From Nocardioides caldifontis (GTDB lineage Bacteria > Actinomycetota > Actinomycetes > Propionibacteriales > Nocardioidaceae): a DNA stretch of 64,000 bases. Under the pieces are notes generated by a model. The model did no database searches. It had not been told where the DNA came from and was given only the letters and a program-made list of their open reading frames with translations. Where the stretch lies: assembly GCF_008087345.1 (NCBI RefSeq), contig NZ_ML701736.1, positions 62,001 to 126,000 of the forward strand. The letters run 5' to 3'. Numbering within the stretch: position 1 is the stretch's first letter; every line of letters begins with the position of its first letter. Made by a program: the position numbers and the translations under genes. Positions 35,941 through 49,033 of the stretch are shown piece by piece.

Positions 35941-36149
35941 GCGGAAGTACCTTTCAGGGGAAGGGCTCGCTCGCGCGGATCTCGCACAGGGAGCTGGAGC
36001 CTCTGACGACGCCCCGCCGGGTGCGGCGGCGCTGGGAGCCCCAATCGACGGAACCGCAACGGTCCTGACGTTCGAGCCGTGTGGCCTTCGCCTCACCCGC
36101 GCAGGGAGGCGTCTTCGAGCGGCGTCGAGAGCGCGGCATGCTTGGCCGC

Positions 36150-36548
36150 ATGCGCTTCACCGAGCACGAGCTGACCGCAGCCTTGCACGCCGCCGCCAAG
36201 ACGGTGCTGGCCTCGCAGCGGAAGGACGTCCGCAAGGGCAAGGTCGACATCGACACCGTGTGGGACGAGATGGACCGCCTGCAACGGTTCCAGCTCCTCG
36301 ACGGCCTCGGGGGGCAGCTGCTGCCGATCCTCGTCGCACTGCCCGACGTCGACGTGGAGCCGGGCACGCGGCCGACGTTCACCGACGAGCAGATCACGGC
36401 GGCCGTCGAGGAGCGGATGGAGGACTCAGGCGGGCGGATGCGTCGCAAGGTCACGGTCGCCGCGCGCGTCGCCCTGGTGAAGGCCGCGTTGGCGCAGCTG
36501 CCCCCGCGGAGCGACCCCGACGCGCTCACGGTGCCCGACCACCTCTGA
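36150..36548 (+). CDS. Conserved-looking hypothetical protein (132 residues)
   Basis: Not assigned to a named family. A soluble, largely helical protein: 'MRFTEHELTAALHAAAK', a basic stretch 'SQRKDVRKGK', 'LDGLGGQLLPILVALPDV', 'RPTFTDEQITAAVEERM' and a tidy end 'PRSDPDALTVPDHL'. No signal peptide or membrane segment is present. The ATG at 36150 starts the recognisable protein; an ATG at 36138 adds four residues, and neither has a strong ribosome site. Codon use is typical of the genome. The preceding ~210 bases (35941-36149) hold the promoter side of the repeat gene; nothing else was recognised there. Confidence 0.6.
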   Translation: MRFTEHELTAALHAAAKTVLASQRKDVRKGKVDIDTVWDEMDRLQRFQLLDGLGGQLLPILVALPDVDVEPGTRPTFTDEQITAAVEERMEDSGGRMRRKVTVAARVALVKAALAQLPPRSDPDALTVPDHL

Positions 36549-36640: not shown

Positions 36641-37996
36641 ATGAACGGGGACGACACGCTGGAGGGGAGCACGACCGCGGGATGGCGGCAGTTCCGCGCG
36701 AGGCTCGCGGACCACGTCGCCGCGATGGACGACGACGACCTGTTGTTGATCGAGGTCGAGTGGCAGGACGACCAGGAGGACGGCGCCGCACCCTACGTCC
36801 AGCTCTGCGGCTGGGGCGACGACCAGGTGCGGCTCGAGGCGGTGAGCAACCACTACCTCGCGCCCGCGGTGAGGCTGGACGACGAGGGCGAGGCGACCTT
36901 GCTGGCGCTCGGCTACGAGGCGCCCAGCCACGGTCCGGAGGACGGTCCGGACGGAGGCTCGGCCAACTTCTACGTCGACCTCGACCGCGGTTGCGCGGAC
37001 CGGGCGGCGGAGATGGCGGTCCGTGCCCTGCGGGACGTGTACGGCGTCGTGCACCCCGCGTTCCTCGACGTCGGCGCCCTGACGCTCCCCGAGCCGGAGG
37101 TCACCGAGCCGGGAGAGGAAGGCGAGGGGCCGGAGGTGGCGTACCCCGGGGGCCGTGACCACCTGCAGTCGTTGGTCGACGCGGCGCTGGTGCCGTTCCT
37201 CGGCCACTCGCCGGAGCACGACGAGGACGGGGACATCCCCGTCGTCCTGGACAGCACGGTCGTGTTCGTCCGGGTCCTCGACGAGGTGCCCGTGGTGCGG
37301 ATGTTCGCCCTCGTCGTGCGCGACGTCGAGCACCCCGAGCGGGCCGCGTTCGAGGTCGGAGTGCTCAACCGCGACACCCGGCTGGTCAAGTTCGTGTGGA
37401 CCGGCCAGAGCGTGATGGCTTCCGTCGAGCTGCCTGCATGGCCGTTCGTCGGTGACCAGCTGCGGTCGGCGCTCGCGATGACCATCGGGGTGCTCGACCA
37501 GGTGGCCCCGGACCTGGCGGTGCGGCTCGGTGGCCGGACGGTGATCGAGGCGAGCCCCGAGGTCGGTGCGGCACCGGCGGAGGACCCGGAGCCCGAGCGG
37601 TCCAGCCCCTACGTGGCCGTCCTGCGGGTCCTCCACGAGCTCGACACGGAGTCCCCGGGCGAGGTCGACCCGGTGCTCGCCGCCGGTCTCTGCGAGGACG
37701 ACCGCGACCTCATCCTCGAGGTGCTGTCCCGCGCGACCGACCGGGAGGCATCCTGGCGCGTCGGGCTGGAAAACGCCCTCGACGAGGGTGACGACGACGA
37801 GGCCGAGCTCTGCGCGGAGGAGCTGGAGCGCGCGGTGCGGCTCATCGCGTTGCTGCGCGCGGCCCTGCGCCGCACCGTCGAGCGGCAGGTCGAGGCGACG
37901 CGGGCGGCGCAGCACGAGCGGAGCCGGCGGCGGGGACGTCGGCGGCGGGTCCCGGACCCGACGCTCGACGAGGTCGACCCCGGCATGTGGGGCTGA
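36641..37996 (+). CDS. Probable TY-Chap (Tir/YbjN chaperone-like) domain protein
   Basis: A 451-residue acidic cytoplasmic protein. It seems to hold two alpha/beta chaperone-like modules. The first (about 10-135) is 'WRQFRARLADHVAAMDDD', 'LLLIEVEWQ' and 'YVQLCGWGDDQVRLEAV'. The second (about 165-300) is 'LQSLVDAALVPFLGH' and 'FALVVRDVEHPERAAFEVG'. A long acidic and then highly basic tail follows (RSRRRGRRRRVPDP). The pattern resembles actinobacterial YbjN/type III chaperone-like (TY-Chap) proteins linked to conflict systems, an assignment made by eye. The ATG at 36641 follows a G-rich site; TACCGT at 36597 may be its -10. Four bases separate it from the nuclease-helicase gene, so they are co-expressed. 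Confidence 0.6.
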   Translation: MNGDDTLEGSTTAGWRQFRARLADHVAAMDDDDLLLIEVEWQDDQEDGAAPYVQLCGWGDDQVRLEAVSNHYLAPAVRLDDEGEATLLALGYEAPSHGPEDGPDGGSANFYVDLDRGCADRAAEMAVRALRDVYGVVHPAFLDVGALTLPEPEVTEPGEEGEGPEVAYPGGRDHLQSLVDAALVPFLGHSPEHDEDGDIPVVLDSTVVFVRVLDEVPVVRMFALVVRDVEHPERAAFEVGVLNRDTRLVKFVWTGQSVMASVELPAWPFVGDQLRSALAMTIGVLDQVAPDLAVRLGGRTVIEASPEVGAAPAEDPEPERSSPYVAVLRVLHELDTESPGEVDPVLAAGLCEDDRDLILEVLSRATDREASWRVGLENALDEGDDDEAELCAEELERAVRLIALLRAALRRTVERQVEATRAAQHERSRRRGRRRRVPDPTLDEVDPGMWG

Positions 37997-40647: not shown

Positions 40648-42633
40648 ATGAAGCGAGCCCGAGCACGCGCCCTGCTGGCCGGCGTCCTCATGACGTCCGG
40701 TCCGATGCTGGGTGCTGTCGCGACGGTCGCCCCGGCGCACGCGCAGCCGCCCGTGCTGGCCCCCGACAAGCCTGACCGCCCCGGCGGTTCCGAGGCGCAG
40801 GCCCGGCCCGGGAAGCCGGGGAAGCCCGGCAAGCCGGGCAAGGGCGGCAAGAAGAAGGCCAAGCCCGACCGGCAGCCCCCGGGCACCCCGGCGGTCGGGG
40901 GCACCTACTCGGGTCCCGGCGGCTACGTCTCGGTCTCGGTGAGCGCCGAGGCCGGCAGCCGCGTCGTGGTCCGCGCCAAGGGCGGCGGCGTGGTCGCCGT
41001 CGGCAGCGGCACGGGGGGCTACAGCTCGGTCGGCTGGACCACCTCGACCGGCAACCACGTCTACACGGTCCGCGCCGTCGACGGCGCCGGCAACGCCAGC
41101 CGCTCGGCGACGTTCTCCGTGTACGCCGACGCCAACCCTCCGGCGCTGAGGCGTGTCGACACCAAGGCCGGCAACGCGAAGGACACCCGCACCCGCGTCC
41201 GGTTCACCACCGACGCGGGCTCGGCGTACCGCATCCTCTCCGGAGGCAAGGTGCTGCAGAAGGGGACCACCGGCACCGCGCGGGTCAACGAGCGCGTCGA
41301 CCTGCCGAACGGGCGCCACGGCGTCACCGTCGAGGTCCGCGACAAGGTCGGCAACACCCGCACCGCTACCGACTCCGTGCGCGTCGCGGTCAAGGAGCTC
41401 GCGGTCCGCGCGGAGCTGGTCAGCGAGCCGACCACCGGCACCCAGGTCCTCGCCGTGGAGGCCACCCCCAACGCACGACGCGCGGTCTTCCGCCTGCCGG
41501 GCGAGGACAAGCAGAAGCTCCGGATGCGCTACGGCTCGGGCGACTTCAAGCTGCGGCTTGAGGACGGCACCTACGAGGGCGGCGTCGTGCGGGTGCGCGA
41601 CAGCCAGGGGCGCGTCGGGCGCGTCGAGGTGCCGGATCTGGTCGTCGACACCACACCCCCCAGCCTGAAGGTCGACACCGACACCGTGGCCGCGTCCCGC
41701 GGGTCGCTGGAGATGACCGTGACCGCCGACGAGGGCGACGAGGTCACCTGGCAGCTGCTCGACGACGACGAGGTCGTCGAGGAGGGCTCGTTCACCTCGG
41801 ACGGCGAGGCCCGGACCGTCGAGGAGGACGTCGAGGCCGGTGCCTTCCGGCTCGCCGTCAGCGCCACCGACGGGTTCGAGCGGACCACCACCGACGTGAC
41901 CACCACCCGGATCGGCGCCGACGCGACGCCGTACGGGGTGATCGCACTGGTCGTGCTGGGTCTGCTCGCGCTGGTCGGTGGGATCGTCGCGGCCGTGCTC
42001 CGGGTGCGCACCCACCCCCCGGTGTGGGCGCAGCGGCTCGGCAGGCGGCTCTCCGCGACCACCGAGACCGTCACCTCCAAGGCGAAGGCCGTCGCCTCGA
42101 TCCCGCAGCAGCGGCGTGCTCTGGAGCTCGAGGAGGAGGAGTGGTACCGCCGCGACGAGGAGCTCGTCACCCTCCTCGCCGCCGCGACCGGCGAGGCCGC
42201 CCCCGGCGGCGAGATCGAGCTCCCCGAGGTCGGGCCGCTCCCGCACGAGCAGGTGCTCTACACCGCCCCGGCACGGCTCTTCGAGCACGGTGAGGGGCCC
42301 GAGTCGGTGGTGACGGTCGACGGCGAGCTCGTCGTGACGACGATGCGCATCGCGTTCGTCGGCGGCGGCGAGCAGCGCGACTGGTGGCGGGCGCTGGTGG
42401 AGGAGCTCCGCCACGACGGTGACGACCTGACCGTGGTCAAGCGGTGGCACGACGACGCGTGGACCGGGTTCGAGTACGCCGACCCCGAGCTGACGCGGCT
42501 CTACCTCGACCTCACCGTTGCCGAGCGCCACGGCGCCAAGGAGCACTTCGTCGAGCGAGTGCAGCGGCTCGTGGACGAGCACCGGGCCGGGCGTCCGGAG
42601 GCGCCCCGCACGCAGGTGCCCGCCGACGCCTGA
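40648..42633 (+). CDS. Surface protein with Ig-like domains, one membrane helix and PH/GRAM-like cytoplasmic domain
   Basis: Function not known. 661 residues in this order: signal peptide (to about 32, ending PAHAQ); a Gly/Pro/Lys linker (GKPGKPGKPGKGGKKK); three or four Ig-like beta domains (about 75-425) with 'YTVRAVDGAGNAS', 'VEVRDKVGNTRT' and 'VVDTTPPSLKV'; one membrane helix (about 429-453); a basic and acidic helical stretch with 'LELEEEEWYRRDEEL'; and a C-terminal domain (about 530-650) with 'DGELVVTTMRIAFVGG' and 'RDWWRALVEELRH', resembling a bacterial PH/GRAM fold. The gene at 44350-46341 encodes a full-length paralogue. The ATG at 40648 follows GGAGAAG. It ends 4 bases from the convergent hydrolase gene. 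A receptor or wall-sensing role is inferred. Confidence 0.75.
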   Translation: MKRARARALLAGVLMTSGPMLGAVATVAPAHAQPPVLAPDKPDRPGGSEAQARPGKPGKPGKPGKGGKKKAKPDRQPPGTPAVGGTYSGPGGYVSVSVSAEAGSRVVVRAKGGGVVAVGSGTGGYSSVGWTTSTGNHVYTVRAVDGAGNASRSATFSVYADANPPALRRVDTKAGNAKDTRTRVRFTTDAGSAYRILSGGKVLQKGTTGTARVNERVDLPNGRHGVTVEVRDKVGNTRTATDSVRVAVKELAVRAELVSEPTTGTQVLAVEATPNARRAVFRLPGEDKQKLRMRYGSGDFKLRLEDGTYEGGVVRVRDSQGRVGRVEVPDLVVDTTPPSLKVDTDTVAASRGSLEMTVTADEGDEVTWQLLDDDEVVEEGSFTSDGEARTVEEDVEAGAFRLAVSATDGFERTTTDVTTTRIGADATPYGVIALVVLGLLALVGGIVAAVLRVRTHPPVWAQRLGRRLSATTETVTSKAKAVASIPQQRRALELEEEEWYRRDEELVTLLAAATGEAAPGGEIELPEVGPLPHEQVLYTAPARLFEHGEGPESVVTVDGELVVTTMRIAFVGGGEQRDWWRALVEELRHDGDDLTVVKRWHDDAWTGFEYADPELTRLYLDLTVAERHGAKEHFVERVQRLVDEHRAGRPEAPRTQVPADA

Positions 42634-42637
42634 GGCG

Positions 42638-44197
42638 TCACCCGACTACCGACAGGTGGACCTTCGCGTCCTGGAGCCGGACCGCGCCCGGGAGCCGGCT
42701 TCCCATGACGAGGAACGTGTCGCTGATCGGGCTGACCATCAGGAACAGCCGCTGGTGCTCCGGCACGTCCACGGCCACCGCGGGCAGCTCGATGCGGCGC
42801 TGGACGCGGGAGACCGGCTTCGGCTCGTTGAGCGGCATCACGTTGTTCTGCACCAGCGTCGCGTCCAGCGGGCTCCGGCCGATGGCGAGCCCGAGGAAGG
42901 CACGGCTGTCGGGCAGCAGGGTACTCACCTTCGCCGAGAGGTACGCCGACCCGGCGATCCGCAGGGGGCCCTTCGCGACCTCCACGGCGATCGGCAGCCC
43001 GACGCCCGTCGACGTGGCCACGTCGCGCACCGGGAACGCGGTGTCCGGGGCGACCGAGCGCACCGTCGTGCAGGTGCTGTAGCGGGTCGCGAGATGCACC
43101 TTGCCGTAGCCGCGCAACTCCCAGTCACGGCCCTTGAGCACCTCGTCGAAGAACTTCAGGGACAGCGCCGTGAAGTCGCCGCCACCCAGCCGCTCGCTGC
43201 ACGGGTCGGAGGTGACCTCGACGCCACGGGGGAGCAGGGTCGGCAGCACGTGGCCACCGTTGTAGCCGACGAGCATGCTCCGCTTCCGGGCCCGCGGCGT
43301 GAGCGCCGTACGCCAGTTGGTCAGCCCCTGCTGGAGGTTGAACAGCGAGTCGGTGGTGCCCTGGCCGAAGAGGACCGGGATGTCGAGGCGGCGGCCGTCG
43401 CGGACGTGCCACGACGGCCCGTTGCGGTCGAAGAAGGTCTCCATGTCCTCGCCGAGCGGGAAGCGGCCGTCCGGCCAGTAACCCGTGGCCGCCCCTTCGA
43501 CGAGCGCCTTGTAGACGTTGGCCGGCAACGCGTCGAACGGCAGCGACGCGGCGCTGAGTGCCAGCGCCCACTCGGTGCGGACCACGCCCTCCGGCGCGAG
43601 GCTGTCGTTGAGGTCGTTCCAGGTGATCTCGGGGGCGAGCGCGTCGAACACCGGCTTGCCGCGCGTGCGGAGCTCCTCGAACGCGCCGAGGAGCTGGTAG
43701 CCGCCGCCGTAGCTGCCGCCGACCGCACCCATCCGCGGGTCGCCCGGTCCGTCCTGGCGCACCCAGCGCAGCTTGCCGACGACGCCGACGAGCGCGCGGA
43801 CGTCGTGGCCCTCGACCGCCGGGTTCTCGACGTGGGCGTGGCCGCCGCTCTCGCCCCAGCCGCGCTGGTCGTAGGAGAGCACGCCGTAGCCGGCGTCGAG
43901 GTACCGCTGCACGTCGGCCACCTTCGTCGCCCGTGACCCGCCCCAGCCGTGGCTGTGCATCAGCAGCGGGACCGGGGCACGTCGGCTGGCGCCGGCGGGC
44001 TTGAAGACCGTGTAGCAGATCTCGACGGGCCTGGAGGTGCCAGGATCGGGGACGCTGGTCAGGCACCCGTCGCGCTGGGTGTGTCCGGGGCCGGGGAGGG
44101 GCGGCGCCGCCTCCGCGGTGCTGCCGGGTACGACCTGGGTGGCGGCGAGGGTGGCCAGGGCGGCGAGCCCGGCGGCCAGCGTGGTGCGCAGCGGCAT
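42638..44197 (-). CDS. Secreted S15/CocE-NonD-type alpha/beta hydrolase
   Basis: A 519-residue exported serine hydrolase of the X-Pro dipeptidyl-peptidase/CocE class. The signal peptide ends near STAEAAP. The nucleophile is Ser162 in 'AVGGSYGGGYQ'. The acid is probably the Asp in 'FGQGTTDSLFN' and the base the His in 'VGYNGGHVLP'. 'YDQRGWGESGG' is a typical early strand. The C-terminal ~140 residues form the jelly-roll domain of this class ('RIAGSAYLSAKVSTLL'). It acts outside the cell on peptides or esters. It sits between the two paralogous Ig-membrane proteins, convergent with the first and divergent from the second. Confidence 0.85.
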   Translation of the reverse strand: MPLRTTLAAGLAALATLAATQVVPGSTAEAAPPLPGPGHTQRDGCLTSVPDPGTSRPVEICYTVFKPAGASRRAPVPLLMHSHGWGGSRATKVADVQRYLDAGYGVLSYDQRGWGESGGHAHVENPAVEGHDVRALVGVVGKLRWVRQDGPGDPRMGAVGGSYGGGYQLLGAFEELRTRGKPVFDALAPEITWNDLNDSLAPEGVVRTEWALALSAASLPFDALPANVYKALVEGAATGYWPDGRFPLGEDMETFFDRNGPSWHVRDGRRLDIPVLFGQGTTDSLFNLQQGLTNWRTALTPRARKRSMLVGYNGGHVLPTLLPRGVEVTSDPCSERLGGGDFTALSLKFFDEVLKGRDWELRGYGKVHLATRYSTCTTVRSVAPDTAFPVRDVATSTGVGLPIAVEVAKGPLRIAGSAYLSAKVSTLLPDSRAFLGLAIGRSPLDATLVQNNVMPLNEPKPVSRVQRRIELPAVAVDVPEHQRLFLMVSPISDTFLVMGSRLPGAVRLQDAKVHLSVVG

Positions 44198-44349
44198 GCC
44201 TCCCCAACGGCCGACCTGCGCGGCCGGTTACGAAGCGGCCCCTGGGTGGCCATGGTCACCGAGTGACCAATGAGGCGATTTACGCAACTTCATCCGTTTC
44301 CTGCCGATACCGTGTGCAGACGGTCGTACGCGAGGAGAAGGCAGTCGGG

Positions 44350-46341
44350 ATGAAGGGTCGCAAGCGCGCCCAGCTGGTCGGTGCGGCGCTCACAGCAGGG
44401 ATGGTGCTGCTCGGGACGGCCGGTGCGGCCACGCCGGCGTACTCCGCCCCGGACGACTCCACCCGCACACCGTCCACCCCGGGAAAGCAGAAGCCGGGCG
44501 ACGACAAGGGCGGGAAGCGCGACCAGGACGACTCGTCGACCAAGCCCGGCAAGCCCGAGAAGGAGAAGCCGGAGAAGGACACCGAGGCGCCTGCTGCTCC
44601 CCGGCTGGGTGAGGCGACCGTCGCTCCCAAGGGGGCCGTCGAGCTCCCCGTGACCGCCGAGAAGGACGCCAAGGTCGTCGTGCGCGAGGACGGCGGCCGG
44701 GTCGTCGGGCGCACCAGGGCCACCGGCTCGCCGCAGGTCCTGAAGTGGCGGACCCGGCACGGCGAGCACGAGTACTCCGTCACCGCGACCGACAAGGCCA
44801 AGAACGAGAGCGACGCTGCCACCGTCACCGTCGACGTCGACGCGCGAGCCCCGAAGATCCGCCGGTTCGAGCTCACCCCCGGCACCGCCGACGACTCGCG
44901 CAGCTCCATGCTGCTGCGCACCGAGGGCGGAGCGGCATACCGGCTCCTGGTCGACCGCGAGGTCGTCGACGAAGGCACCACCGAGGACGGTCATCTGGAC
45001 CAGGTGCTCGACCTGGCCAACGGCCGGCACCCGGTCCGCATCGAGCTCGTCGACGAGGTCGGCAACCGCGCCGTCGAGACCCGACAGCTGGTCGTCCGGA
45101 TCCCCGAGCTCGAGGTCGACGCCGAGGTGCTGAGCGAGGTCACCGACTCGGTCCAGGTGGTCCGGGTCGAGGCGATGGCGGGCACGACCGCGGTGCTCGC
45201 GGTGCCCGGCCAGGCCGACCTGCGGTTCAAGCTGCCCAAGGGCAAGGCCGAGGTCGAGCTGCCGCTCGCGGACGGGACGTACGACGACGCGACCGTGACG
45301 GTCACCGACCGCCAGGGGCGCACCGGCACGGTCGAGCTGCCCACCGTCGTCGTCGACACCACGCCGCCCGACCTCTCGGTCTCCGTCGACCGTGCGGTCG
45401 CCGCCGAGGGCCGGTTGGACGCCGAGATCACCGCCGACGAGGACACCGTCGTGGACTGGGAGCTCCTCGACGCCGGCCGCGTGGTCGAGTCCGGGAAGTA
45501 CGTCGCGCTCGGCGGGCCCCAGGCTCTCGAGCGGGACGTCGAGGAGGGCTCCTACGAGCTCGAGGTCACCGCGACCGACACCTTCGACCGTACGACCGTG
45601 GACCGCGTGAAGGTGGCCGTCGCCGCCGACCCGATGTCCGCCTCGACGATCGCCCTCCTCGTCCTCGCCGCGCTCGCGGTGGTGGGTGCGGCCGTGGGAG
45701 GCACCATCGCCTACCTCCGTCACCGCCGCCGCACGCTGGGCGTGGTCCGCAAGGAGAAGGTGCGCAAGGTCAAGGGACGCAAGGCGAAGGCCCGCGTCGC
45801 CGAGATCAGTCGCGAGCAGGAGGTCGCCTTCGCGGAGGCCTCGGAGCTGTGGCGCCGTCGTCACGAGGCGCTGACGACCTTGCTGGACATCGCCAACGGC
45901 GCCGCTCCCGTGGTGCCGGTGCTGGAGGGGCTCGAGCCGCTGCCGGACGAGCAGGTGCTCTACATGGTCGGCGCCGACCTGACCGACATGATGGACAGCG
46001 ACCGGCTCGACGTGACGCTCGGCAGCGCCGACGGCGAGCTCGTCGTCACCACGCACCGCTTCGCGTTCGTCGGCCCCGAGCAGCGCCGCGACTGGTGGCT
46101 TCCGCTCGTCGAGCAGCTCCGTCACCGCGACCACCGGCACACCAGCATCAAGCTGCGGGACAGCGACACCCGGTCGTGGCTGGAGTACGACGACCCCGAG
46201 GTCACCCGGCTCTACCTCGACTTCGCGATGGCCGGGCAGAACGGCACCCGCACGGCGTACGTCGCCGGGCTGGCCCAGGGGCTCCGGGACCACGAGATGC
46301 GTCGTCCCACCCCGCCCGGCCAGCAGCCCGTCCGCGCCTGA
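44350..46341 (+). CDS. Second Ig-like/membrane/PH-GRAM-like surface protein (paralogue)
   Basis: 663 residues, collinear with the product of 40648-42633. It has a signal peptide (to about 35), a Lys/Asp/Pro linker ('KPGKPEKEKPEKD'), Ig-like domains ('YSVTATDKAKNESD', 'VVDTTPPDLSV'), a membrane helix at the same position (about 430-455), a very basic juxtamembrane stretch (RKEKVRKVKGRKAKAR) and the cytoplasmic 'DGELVVTTHRFAFVGPEQ' with 'RDWWLPLVEQLRH'. The juxtamembrane region differs most from the first copy. Its leader also resembles that of the first copy (GAGAAGGCAG before the ATG), with TACCGT at 44308 as a likely -10. Function unknown; a duplicated cell-surface sensor is inferred. Confidence 0.75.
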   Translation: MKGRKRAQLVGAALTAGMVLLGTAGAATPAYSAPDDSTRTPSTPGKQKPGDDKGGKRDQDDSSTKPGKPEKEKPEKDTEAPAAPRLGEATVAPKGAVELPVTAEKDAKVVVREDGGRVVGRTRATGSPQVLKWRTRHGEHEYSVTATDKAKNESDAATVTVDVDARAPKIRRFELTPGTADDSRSSMLLRTEGGAAYRLLVDREVVDEGTTEDGHLDQVLDLANGRHPVRIELVDEVGNRAVETRQLVVRIPELEVDAEVLSEVTDSVQVVRVEAMAGTTAVLAVPGQADLRFKLPKGKAEVELPLADGTYDDATVTVTDRQGRTGTVELPTVVVDTTPPDLSVSVDRAVAAEGRLDAEITADEDTVVDWELLDAGRVVESGKYVALGGPQALERDVEEGSYELEVTATDTFDRTTVDRVKVAVAADPMSASTIALLVLAALAVVGAAVGGTIAYLRHRRRTLGVVRKEKVRKVKGRKAKARVAEISREQEVAFAEASELWRRRHEALTTLLDIANGAAPVVPVLEGLEPLPDEQVLYMVGADLTDMMDSDRLDVTLGSADGELVVTTHRFAFVGPEQRRDWWLPLVEQLRHRDHRHTSIKLRDSDTRSWLEYDDPEVTRLYLDFAMAGQNGTRTAYVAGLAQGLRDHEMRRPTPPGQQPVRA

Positions 46342-47427: not shown

Positions 47428-49033
<1,606 letters not shown>

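Follow-up and report, generated by a model that had tools for sequence, protein, structure and literature searches.

What are two long, matching envelope proteins doing on either side of a hydrolase gene, and do the three genes work together? The question is raised by genes A and B in a window of 64,000 nucleotides from Nocardioides caldifontis (contig NZ_ML701736.1, positions 62,001 to 126,000 of the forward strand; coordinates below count from the first letter of the window). An earlier note, made from the letters of this DNA, described a pair of surface proteins with immunoglobulin (Ig)-like domains outside the cell and a domain of the pleckstrin homology (PH) or GRAM kind inside. It joined them with the S15-type hydrolase encoded between them into a single wall- or ligand-sensing device.

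Here we report a computational follow-up. Read from their sequences, both proteins consist of a signal segment, an extended linker, tandem Ig-like domains, one transmembrane helix, an inner helix and a domain whose profile resembles those of PH domains. The interpretation that we favour, tentatively, is that A and B belong to a sparsely distributed actinobacterial family of single-pass envelope proteins of type I, and that each is a stalk or adhesin with an inner PH-like plate that serves for docking or oligomerisation.

Two matching membrane proteins

The two genes and their parts are laid out as follows.

40648 to 42633, + strand: gene A, 661 residues; signal peptide, Lys/Pro linker, Ig-like domains (read as four), transmembrane helix at residues 431-449, juxtamembrane stretch, helix and PH-like domain
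42136 to 42630, + strand: C-terminal helix and PH-like domain of gene A, residues 497-661; without a Pfam match, compared with bPH_3 by hhalign as a member of a set
44350 to 46341, + strand: gene B, 663 residues; architecture as in gene A
44584 to 45627, + strand: Ig-like ectodomain of gene B, residues 79-426; read as four beta sandwiches (AlphaFold, Foldseek, Big_13)
45640 to 45696, + strand: transmembrane helix of gene B, residues 431-449; hydropathy 2.48, net charge +5 in the following 20 residues
45841 to 46338, + strand: helix and PH-like C-terminal domain of gene B, residues 498-663

The ATG at 44350 was taken as the start of gene B; the open reading frame itself opens upstream, at a GTG at 44263. 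The earlier note had the coordinates and lengths of both frames right, and the proteins do match end to end: A and B are 40% identical over their full length (E 1.5e-119), a likeness that is far beyond chance. Segment by segment, 41% of residues are identical in the signal and linker and 36-45% in the Ig domains; the transmembrane helix has 38%, the juxtamembrane stretch 12% and the C-terminal domain 46%. The motifs that the note had picked out there, GELVVTT.R.AFVG and RDWW..LVE.L, occur in both proteins, the second as RDWW..LVE.LRH. A and B are the sole copies in their genome, bar one chance-level match (E 0.14) in a protein that we read as thioredoxin-reductase-like and set aside as a chance or partial match.

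How old is the pair? A midpoint-rooted tree of eight full-length proteins groups A with the gene from genome G040 (96/96). B and the G023 gene attach to this pair at a fork that the tree does not resolve, with G058 branching further out. Because B falls outside the A-G040 pair, the A/B duplication looks older than the split between A and the G040 gene, with loss or transfer since; a recent local duplication is unlikely on the same grounds.

The extracellular half is the better defined. Big_13 is found in A and B at 37.6 and 43.2 bits, against a Pfam cut-off of 27, and hydropathy places a signal segment at residues 9-27, so that both are predicted to be exported surface proteins. Besides the signal segment, hydropathy finds one membrane helix in each, at 431-449, which agrees with the position near 430 given in the earlier note; a net charge of +5 follows it directly. 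An AlphaFold model computed from the two window rows folds residues 79-425 of B into Ig-type beta sandwiches, with a predicted local distance difference test (pLDDT) score of 65-92 for each 10-residue block from 81 to 420. From the strand pattern we read these as four Ig-like domains. Model and profile together bear out the Ig-like domains claimed for the two proteins.

Searched with Foldseek, the B ectodomain model matches tandem Ig and FN3 repeats of bacterial and animal proteins, the top match being a bacterial adhesin. The bacterial adhesins among the matches include 4p99, 2yn3 (SiiE) and 6xi3. Because whole-model TM-scores are low (0.2-0.25), the likeness to adhesins holds only at the level of single domains. 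Like these adhesins and other Big_13 proteins, A and B would carry tandem Ig-like sandwiches outside the cell; they differ in having about four repeats, a transmembrane anchor and a cytosolic PH-like domain. The G023 homologue (L006) has an in-frame insertion, a run of (DTAD) units, within Ig domain 3; the other six rows have none.

The C-terminal domain and the bPH_3 family

What is the inner domain? Sequence libraries gave little. Pfam returned zero matches for seven C-terminal domains at E up to 10, so the gathering cut-off of bPH_3 (PF14470) was not reached, and no C-terminal domain of the family that was scanned matched bPH_3 in this way. A profile search of PDB sequences gave nothing convincing (best E 0.65). 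Matches in NCBIfam (E at least 0.0029) and PHROGs (E at least 0.013) were weak, each occurring in at most two of 16 rows, and were taken as chance. So were two Pfam matches in two proteins of the group f27 (described below), one to FANCL_d3 (E 0.13) and one to Vps36_ESCRT-II (E 0.16), a domain that we take to be PH-like. The domain is well conserved all the same: over 16 divergent rows, seven alignment columns never vary (W, E, G, R, G, W, P).

As the libraries gave nothing convincing, we compared profiles with hhalign, using members of bPH_3 and of bPH_2 (PF03703; presumably the family also called DUF304) gathered from whole genomes. A comparison with eight bPH_3 rows gave a weak match (26%, P 7e-4), yet none of 200 shuffles reached its score. 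Against 19 bPH_3 rows the probability rose to 94% for a 16-row set (E 1e-7), 88% for the eight full-length rows (E 3e-6) and 87% for three f38 rows on their own (E 4e-6). A 27-row set gave 93% (E 3e-7) with a score of 46.9, against 17.1 for the best of 100 shuffles, and in neither of two runs of 100 shuffles was the score of the bPH_3 match reached. Overall, sets of 8, 16, 18 and 27 rows scored 88-94% against the 19 bPH_3 rows and 84-89% against 17. Control profiles of the ectodomain and of the S15 hydrolase scored 0.06-0.17%; bPH_2, the positive control, scored 97% against the 19 bPH_3 rows. For comparison, a study of PH domains grouped families at an HHsearch probability of at least 85% (PMC5091641).

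These comparisons support a C-terminal domain that is PH-like and linked to the bPH_3 branch. With the bPH_3 or YokE-like domain it shares a G-E start and a G-x-L-x-x-T-x-x-R-x-x-F hairpin. What sets it apart are an N-terminal helix that is conserved and contains an invariant Trp, another invariant Trp within (R/Q/K)-(D/E)-W, and a C-terminal helical stretch. The PH part of the earlier PH/GRAM-like call is therefore supported, at 84-94% for sets of 8-27 rows. As for the GRAM part, GRAM (PF02893) was absent from the Pfam matches, and no GRAM members were present in 60 genomes or 14 controls from which to build a profile.

Several results weigh against the assignment. A and B by themselves score just 36% against the 19 bPH_3 rows, and five f27 rows just 3%. 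Removing two bPH_2-like rows from the bPH_3 set lowers the probability from 87% to 49% for the f38 rows and from 88% to 84% for the eight full-length rows; the 27-row set then scores 86%, and A with B 29%. bPH_2 itself is matched at less than 1% by all seven subsets and by the 27-row set. The match to bPH_3 is confined to 55-59 columns at the beginning of the domain; for the remaining half of a PH fold the argument is the order of motifs. Finally, AlphaFold failed on the isolated domain: with two rows it gave no confident fold (pLDDT 41), and in the full-length model pLDDT is below 50 over much of the domain. The structure prediction proposed in the earlier note thus does not confirm a PH fold; it is the profile comparison that favours a PH-like one.

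Could the domain be some other small alpha/beta fold that acquired the G-x-L-x-VT-x-x-R-x-x-F hairpin motif by convergence? The failed model, the confinement of the confident match to the first part of the domain, the missing match to bPH_2 and the silence of the f27 rows on their own would all fit such an origin. The E-values of the eight full-length, three f38 and 16 rows, together with the shuffles that never reach the score and unrelated profiles that stay below 0.2%, make it an unlikely one in our judgement.

Relatives and two membrane orders

We distinguish two orders. Type I proteins, such as A and B, run signal, four Ig-like domains, transmembrane helix, PH-like domain; type II proteins run PH-like domain, transmembrane helix, outer tail. 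The open-access literature that we searched did not describe the architecture of A and B. Full-length type I proteins number 11 in 10 genomes, A and B included. Outside the 245 genomes of the family they come from a class sample of 296 (G369) and an order sample of 284 (G747, G810 and G766). Six family genomes (G096, G127, G142, G144, G192 and G231) were dropped because their matches covered only Ig or transmembrane stretches. Also set aside were G492, a chance or partial match in a protein that we read as thiamine-phosphate kinase-like, and G264, whose frame of 176 residues contains an internal stop. Plasmids searched with the B protein and phages searched with its C-terminal domain gave no match. 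Contig scans came up empty even for relatives known from other searches and carry little weight.

Within type I, hydropathy detects a signal segment in nine of the 11 proteins; G058 falls below the cut-off, and the measured frame of G766 is cut at its end. In five (G747, G810, G766, G369 and G214) the Ig domains are preceded by an N-terminal Cys motif, HRxxCHxxHSC.SD.GSY.CGD.

Type II is represented by 10 proteins in nine genomes, in which the helix and PH-like domain are followed by a transmembrane helix, a Ser/Pro/Thr-rich linker and a tail. Nine of the 10 tails contain four to eight cysteines, and that of L027 contains none. Among five tails scanned, DUF3761 appeared in two (E 5e-4 and 2e-5) and in a third (0.03), always below the cut-off. 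Genome G747 holds both orders (L149 and L158), 1.3 Mb apart on one contig. Since the module recurs in reverse order, it appears to need the inner face of a membrane and an outer module, not Ig domains as such.

In which direction do these proteins face? The PH side of the transmembrane helix is the more positive in all 11 type I proteins and net positive in 10. The same bias is seen in nine of 10 type II proteins, the other (L153) having no helix outside the domain at the hydropathy cut-off used. Given this charge bias, the PH-like domain most likely lies in the cytosol in type I and type II alike, in accord with the earlier placement of the Ig domains outside and the PH-like domain inside.

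The domain also occurs away from either order. Fourteen small genomes of group f27 encode it in proteins that are about 220-237 residues long and lack a membrane helix; one of these proteins has an internal stop. All 14 (L095-L098, L100, L102, L103 and L107-L113) contain an inserted stretch, GIR[YF]RVGAxxG, that is absent from the aligned Ig membrane forms; a similar stretch can be seen by eye in L049 and L152. In L115 the PH-like domain follows DUF4236 and a hydrophobic stretch, and the charges leave the topology undecided. In L049, which itself matches the domain weakly (E 2e-4), it stands with DUF2510 and a TerB-like stretch that is below the cut-off.

The hydrolase, the neighbourhood and possible roles

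Does the gene between A and B belong with them? It is laid out as follows.

42638 to 44197, - strand: S15/CocE-type hydrolase, 519 residues; PF02129 (E 8.6e-15); GGSYGG, GTTDSLF and NGGHVLP motifs; signal peptide by eye

The hydrolase lies between A and B, 4 bases from A, as the earlier note said: GGCG separates the two stop codons. The gene converges on A and is transcribed away from B; being on the opposite strand, it is in no operon with either. Its S15 domain is secure (PF02129 at 55.6 bits against a cut-off of 23), and the Ser-Asp-His motifs are present in it and in all 11 homologues extracted, from 47 genomes with a homologue; TIGR00976 stays below its cut-off, at 40 of 66 bits. Domain and catalytic motifs are those of the S15 and CocE-NonD hydrolases (PF02129; TIGR00976), which are unrelated to A and B and unlinked to them in most relatives.

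Homologues of the hydrolase were counted at E 1e-60 among the 245 family genomes, the same set being assumed for the Ig search. They occur in 47, of which 43 are without an Ig protein. The four genomes with both are the window genome, G023, G040 and G058. In G023 the genes are 2.6 kb apart, with glucose-6-phosphate dehydrogenase (G6PDH) and an aldo/keto reductase between them; in G040 they are more than 1 Mb apart (3.15 Mb on a 4.44-Mb contig, 1.3 Mb if it is circular); in G058 they are on different short contigs. At this threshold G011 and G214 have the Ig protein and no S15. In the neighbourhoods fetched (5.5 to 19.5 kb, with genes from a crude caller of open reading frames), an S15 gene accompanies one of the nine full-length genes outside the window, that of G023; none was found near the other eight or near four type II genes. 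Conversely, no Ig-TM-PH gene (TM, transmembrane) was present in 11 S15 neighbourhoods of 16-17 kb, from 10 genomes without an Ig protein and from G040, or on the 8.9-kb contig of G058.

The window and G023 have in common a slightly reordered block, comprising a DUF222-HNH gene, the gene at 36141-36545, the Ig gene, G6PDH and S15, which may explain the proximity of Ig and S15 genes in both. Their adjacency in the window and closeness in G023 are what speak for a wall- or ligand-sensing device whose hydrolase processes the ligand or a linker. Strand, distribution and neighbourhood led us to reject that coupling, which we regard as very improbable; the hydrolase is probably a neighbour gene only, outside the system. 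The earlier note had stated that paralogues standing without the hydrolase in relatives would speak against its reading, and this is the picture around eight of the nine other full-length genes.

Other neighbours can be listed briefly. The stretch at 36141-36545 (+) encodes 135 residues of a small protein without a Pfam match, 62% identical to its counterpart in the G023 block. A protein with three TY-Chap (YbjN-related) chaperone domains above the cut-off is encoded at 36641-37993 (+). Near B, at 47484-49033 (+), an alpha-L-arabinofuranosidase-like gene is apparently split over two frames (47484-48404 and 47717-49033), and so it is either broken or misread in the assembly. In G011 the Ig-TM-PH gene is followed, 24 bases further on and in the same orientation, by a GH43 glycosidase gene (L021:7605-8711); the other neighbourhoods compared held no relatives of this glycosidase.

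What, then, might A and B do? On the reading that we favour, the Ig stalk would span the wall or project from it, binding a wall component or a surface ligand. The cytosolic PH-like domain, held at the membrane, would act as a plate for protein docking or self-association; it would anchor or cluster the stalk and may report its state. There are partial precedents. Solved bacterial PH domains are described as forming oligomeric rings through the edge of strand beta5, which overlaps a protein-binding site of eukaryotic PH domains, and membrane-tethered PHb families are predicted in the same source to face the cytosol (PMC2817789). Like A and B, the membrane-tethered proteins of DUF304, DUF1200 and DUF2244 (PMC2817789) place the domain on the cytosolic face of the membrane. 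A and B differ from them in their Ig ectodomain, signal peptide and single transmembrane helix, and their domain has no profile match to bPH_2.

Some observations fit this role poorly. The family is rare and scattered, with full-length proteins in six of 245 family genomes. In G040 the charges on the two sides differ little (+2 against +1), L156 likewise has a slight bias, and in G214 the PH side is not net positive (0 inside, -2 outside). Beyond S15, the nine full-length neighbourhoods, compared at E 1e-10, share only aldo/keto reductases (two), which gives no hint of a pathway. Ligand binding, docking and oligomerisation are, moreover, all things that we infer.

The next explanation to consider is a passive envelope tether, in which the Ig stalk is a structural element of wall or adhesion and the PH-like domain just an inner anchor, with no signalling or clustering. 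The likeness of the ectodomain to the extender Ig repeats of bacterial adhesins suits it, as does the lack of a conserved signalling gene nearby. We think it possible but on the unlikely side, since conservation between A and B is no lower in the inner domain, at 46%, than in the Ig domains, at 36-45%, if by a narrow margin, and the seven invariant columns of the inner domain go beyond the need of a mere anchor.

A quite different role, in export or transport, is suggested by DdE and DdF, two membrane proteins with domains called PHb2 that are needed to export a leaderless bacteriocin; by that report, membrane PH-domain proteins can be required for export (PMC8657885). If PHb2 is bPH_2, as we read it, the A/B domain shows no match to it. 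With a single transmembrane helix and no transporter gene conserved nearby either, such a helper function is improbable for A and B.

A stalk with an inner docking or oligomerisation plate could be one case of something wider. The PH-like domain at the cytosolic face may self-assemble or dock a partner and so couple interchangeable outer modules, whether an Ig stalk or a Cys-rich tail, in either orientation. Such a general actinobacterial transmembrane device would be a bacterial counterpart to Ig-type cell-adhesion receptors that carry an adaptor domain inside, an idea that we consider doubtful.

Membrane-tethered bacterial PH-like proteins are already known, and in the account cited above the physiological functions of the bacterial PH domains it describes are not understood (PMC2817789). 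What remains new is a rare architecture, along with an unlisted PH-like domain that is used in either membrane orientation. The finding would put a name on a domain missed by Pfam, NCBIfam and PHROGs: a PH-like family, unlisted in the libraries searched, that occurs joined through the membrane to outer modules in either of two opposite arrangements. It also yields a claim that can be tested, namely that this PH-like domain would work at the inner face of the membrane in step with something outside.

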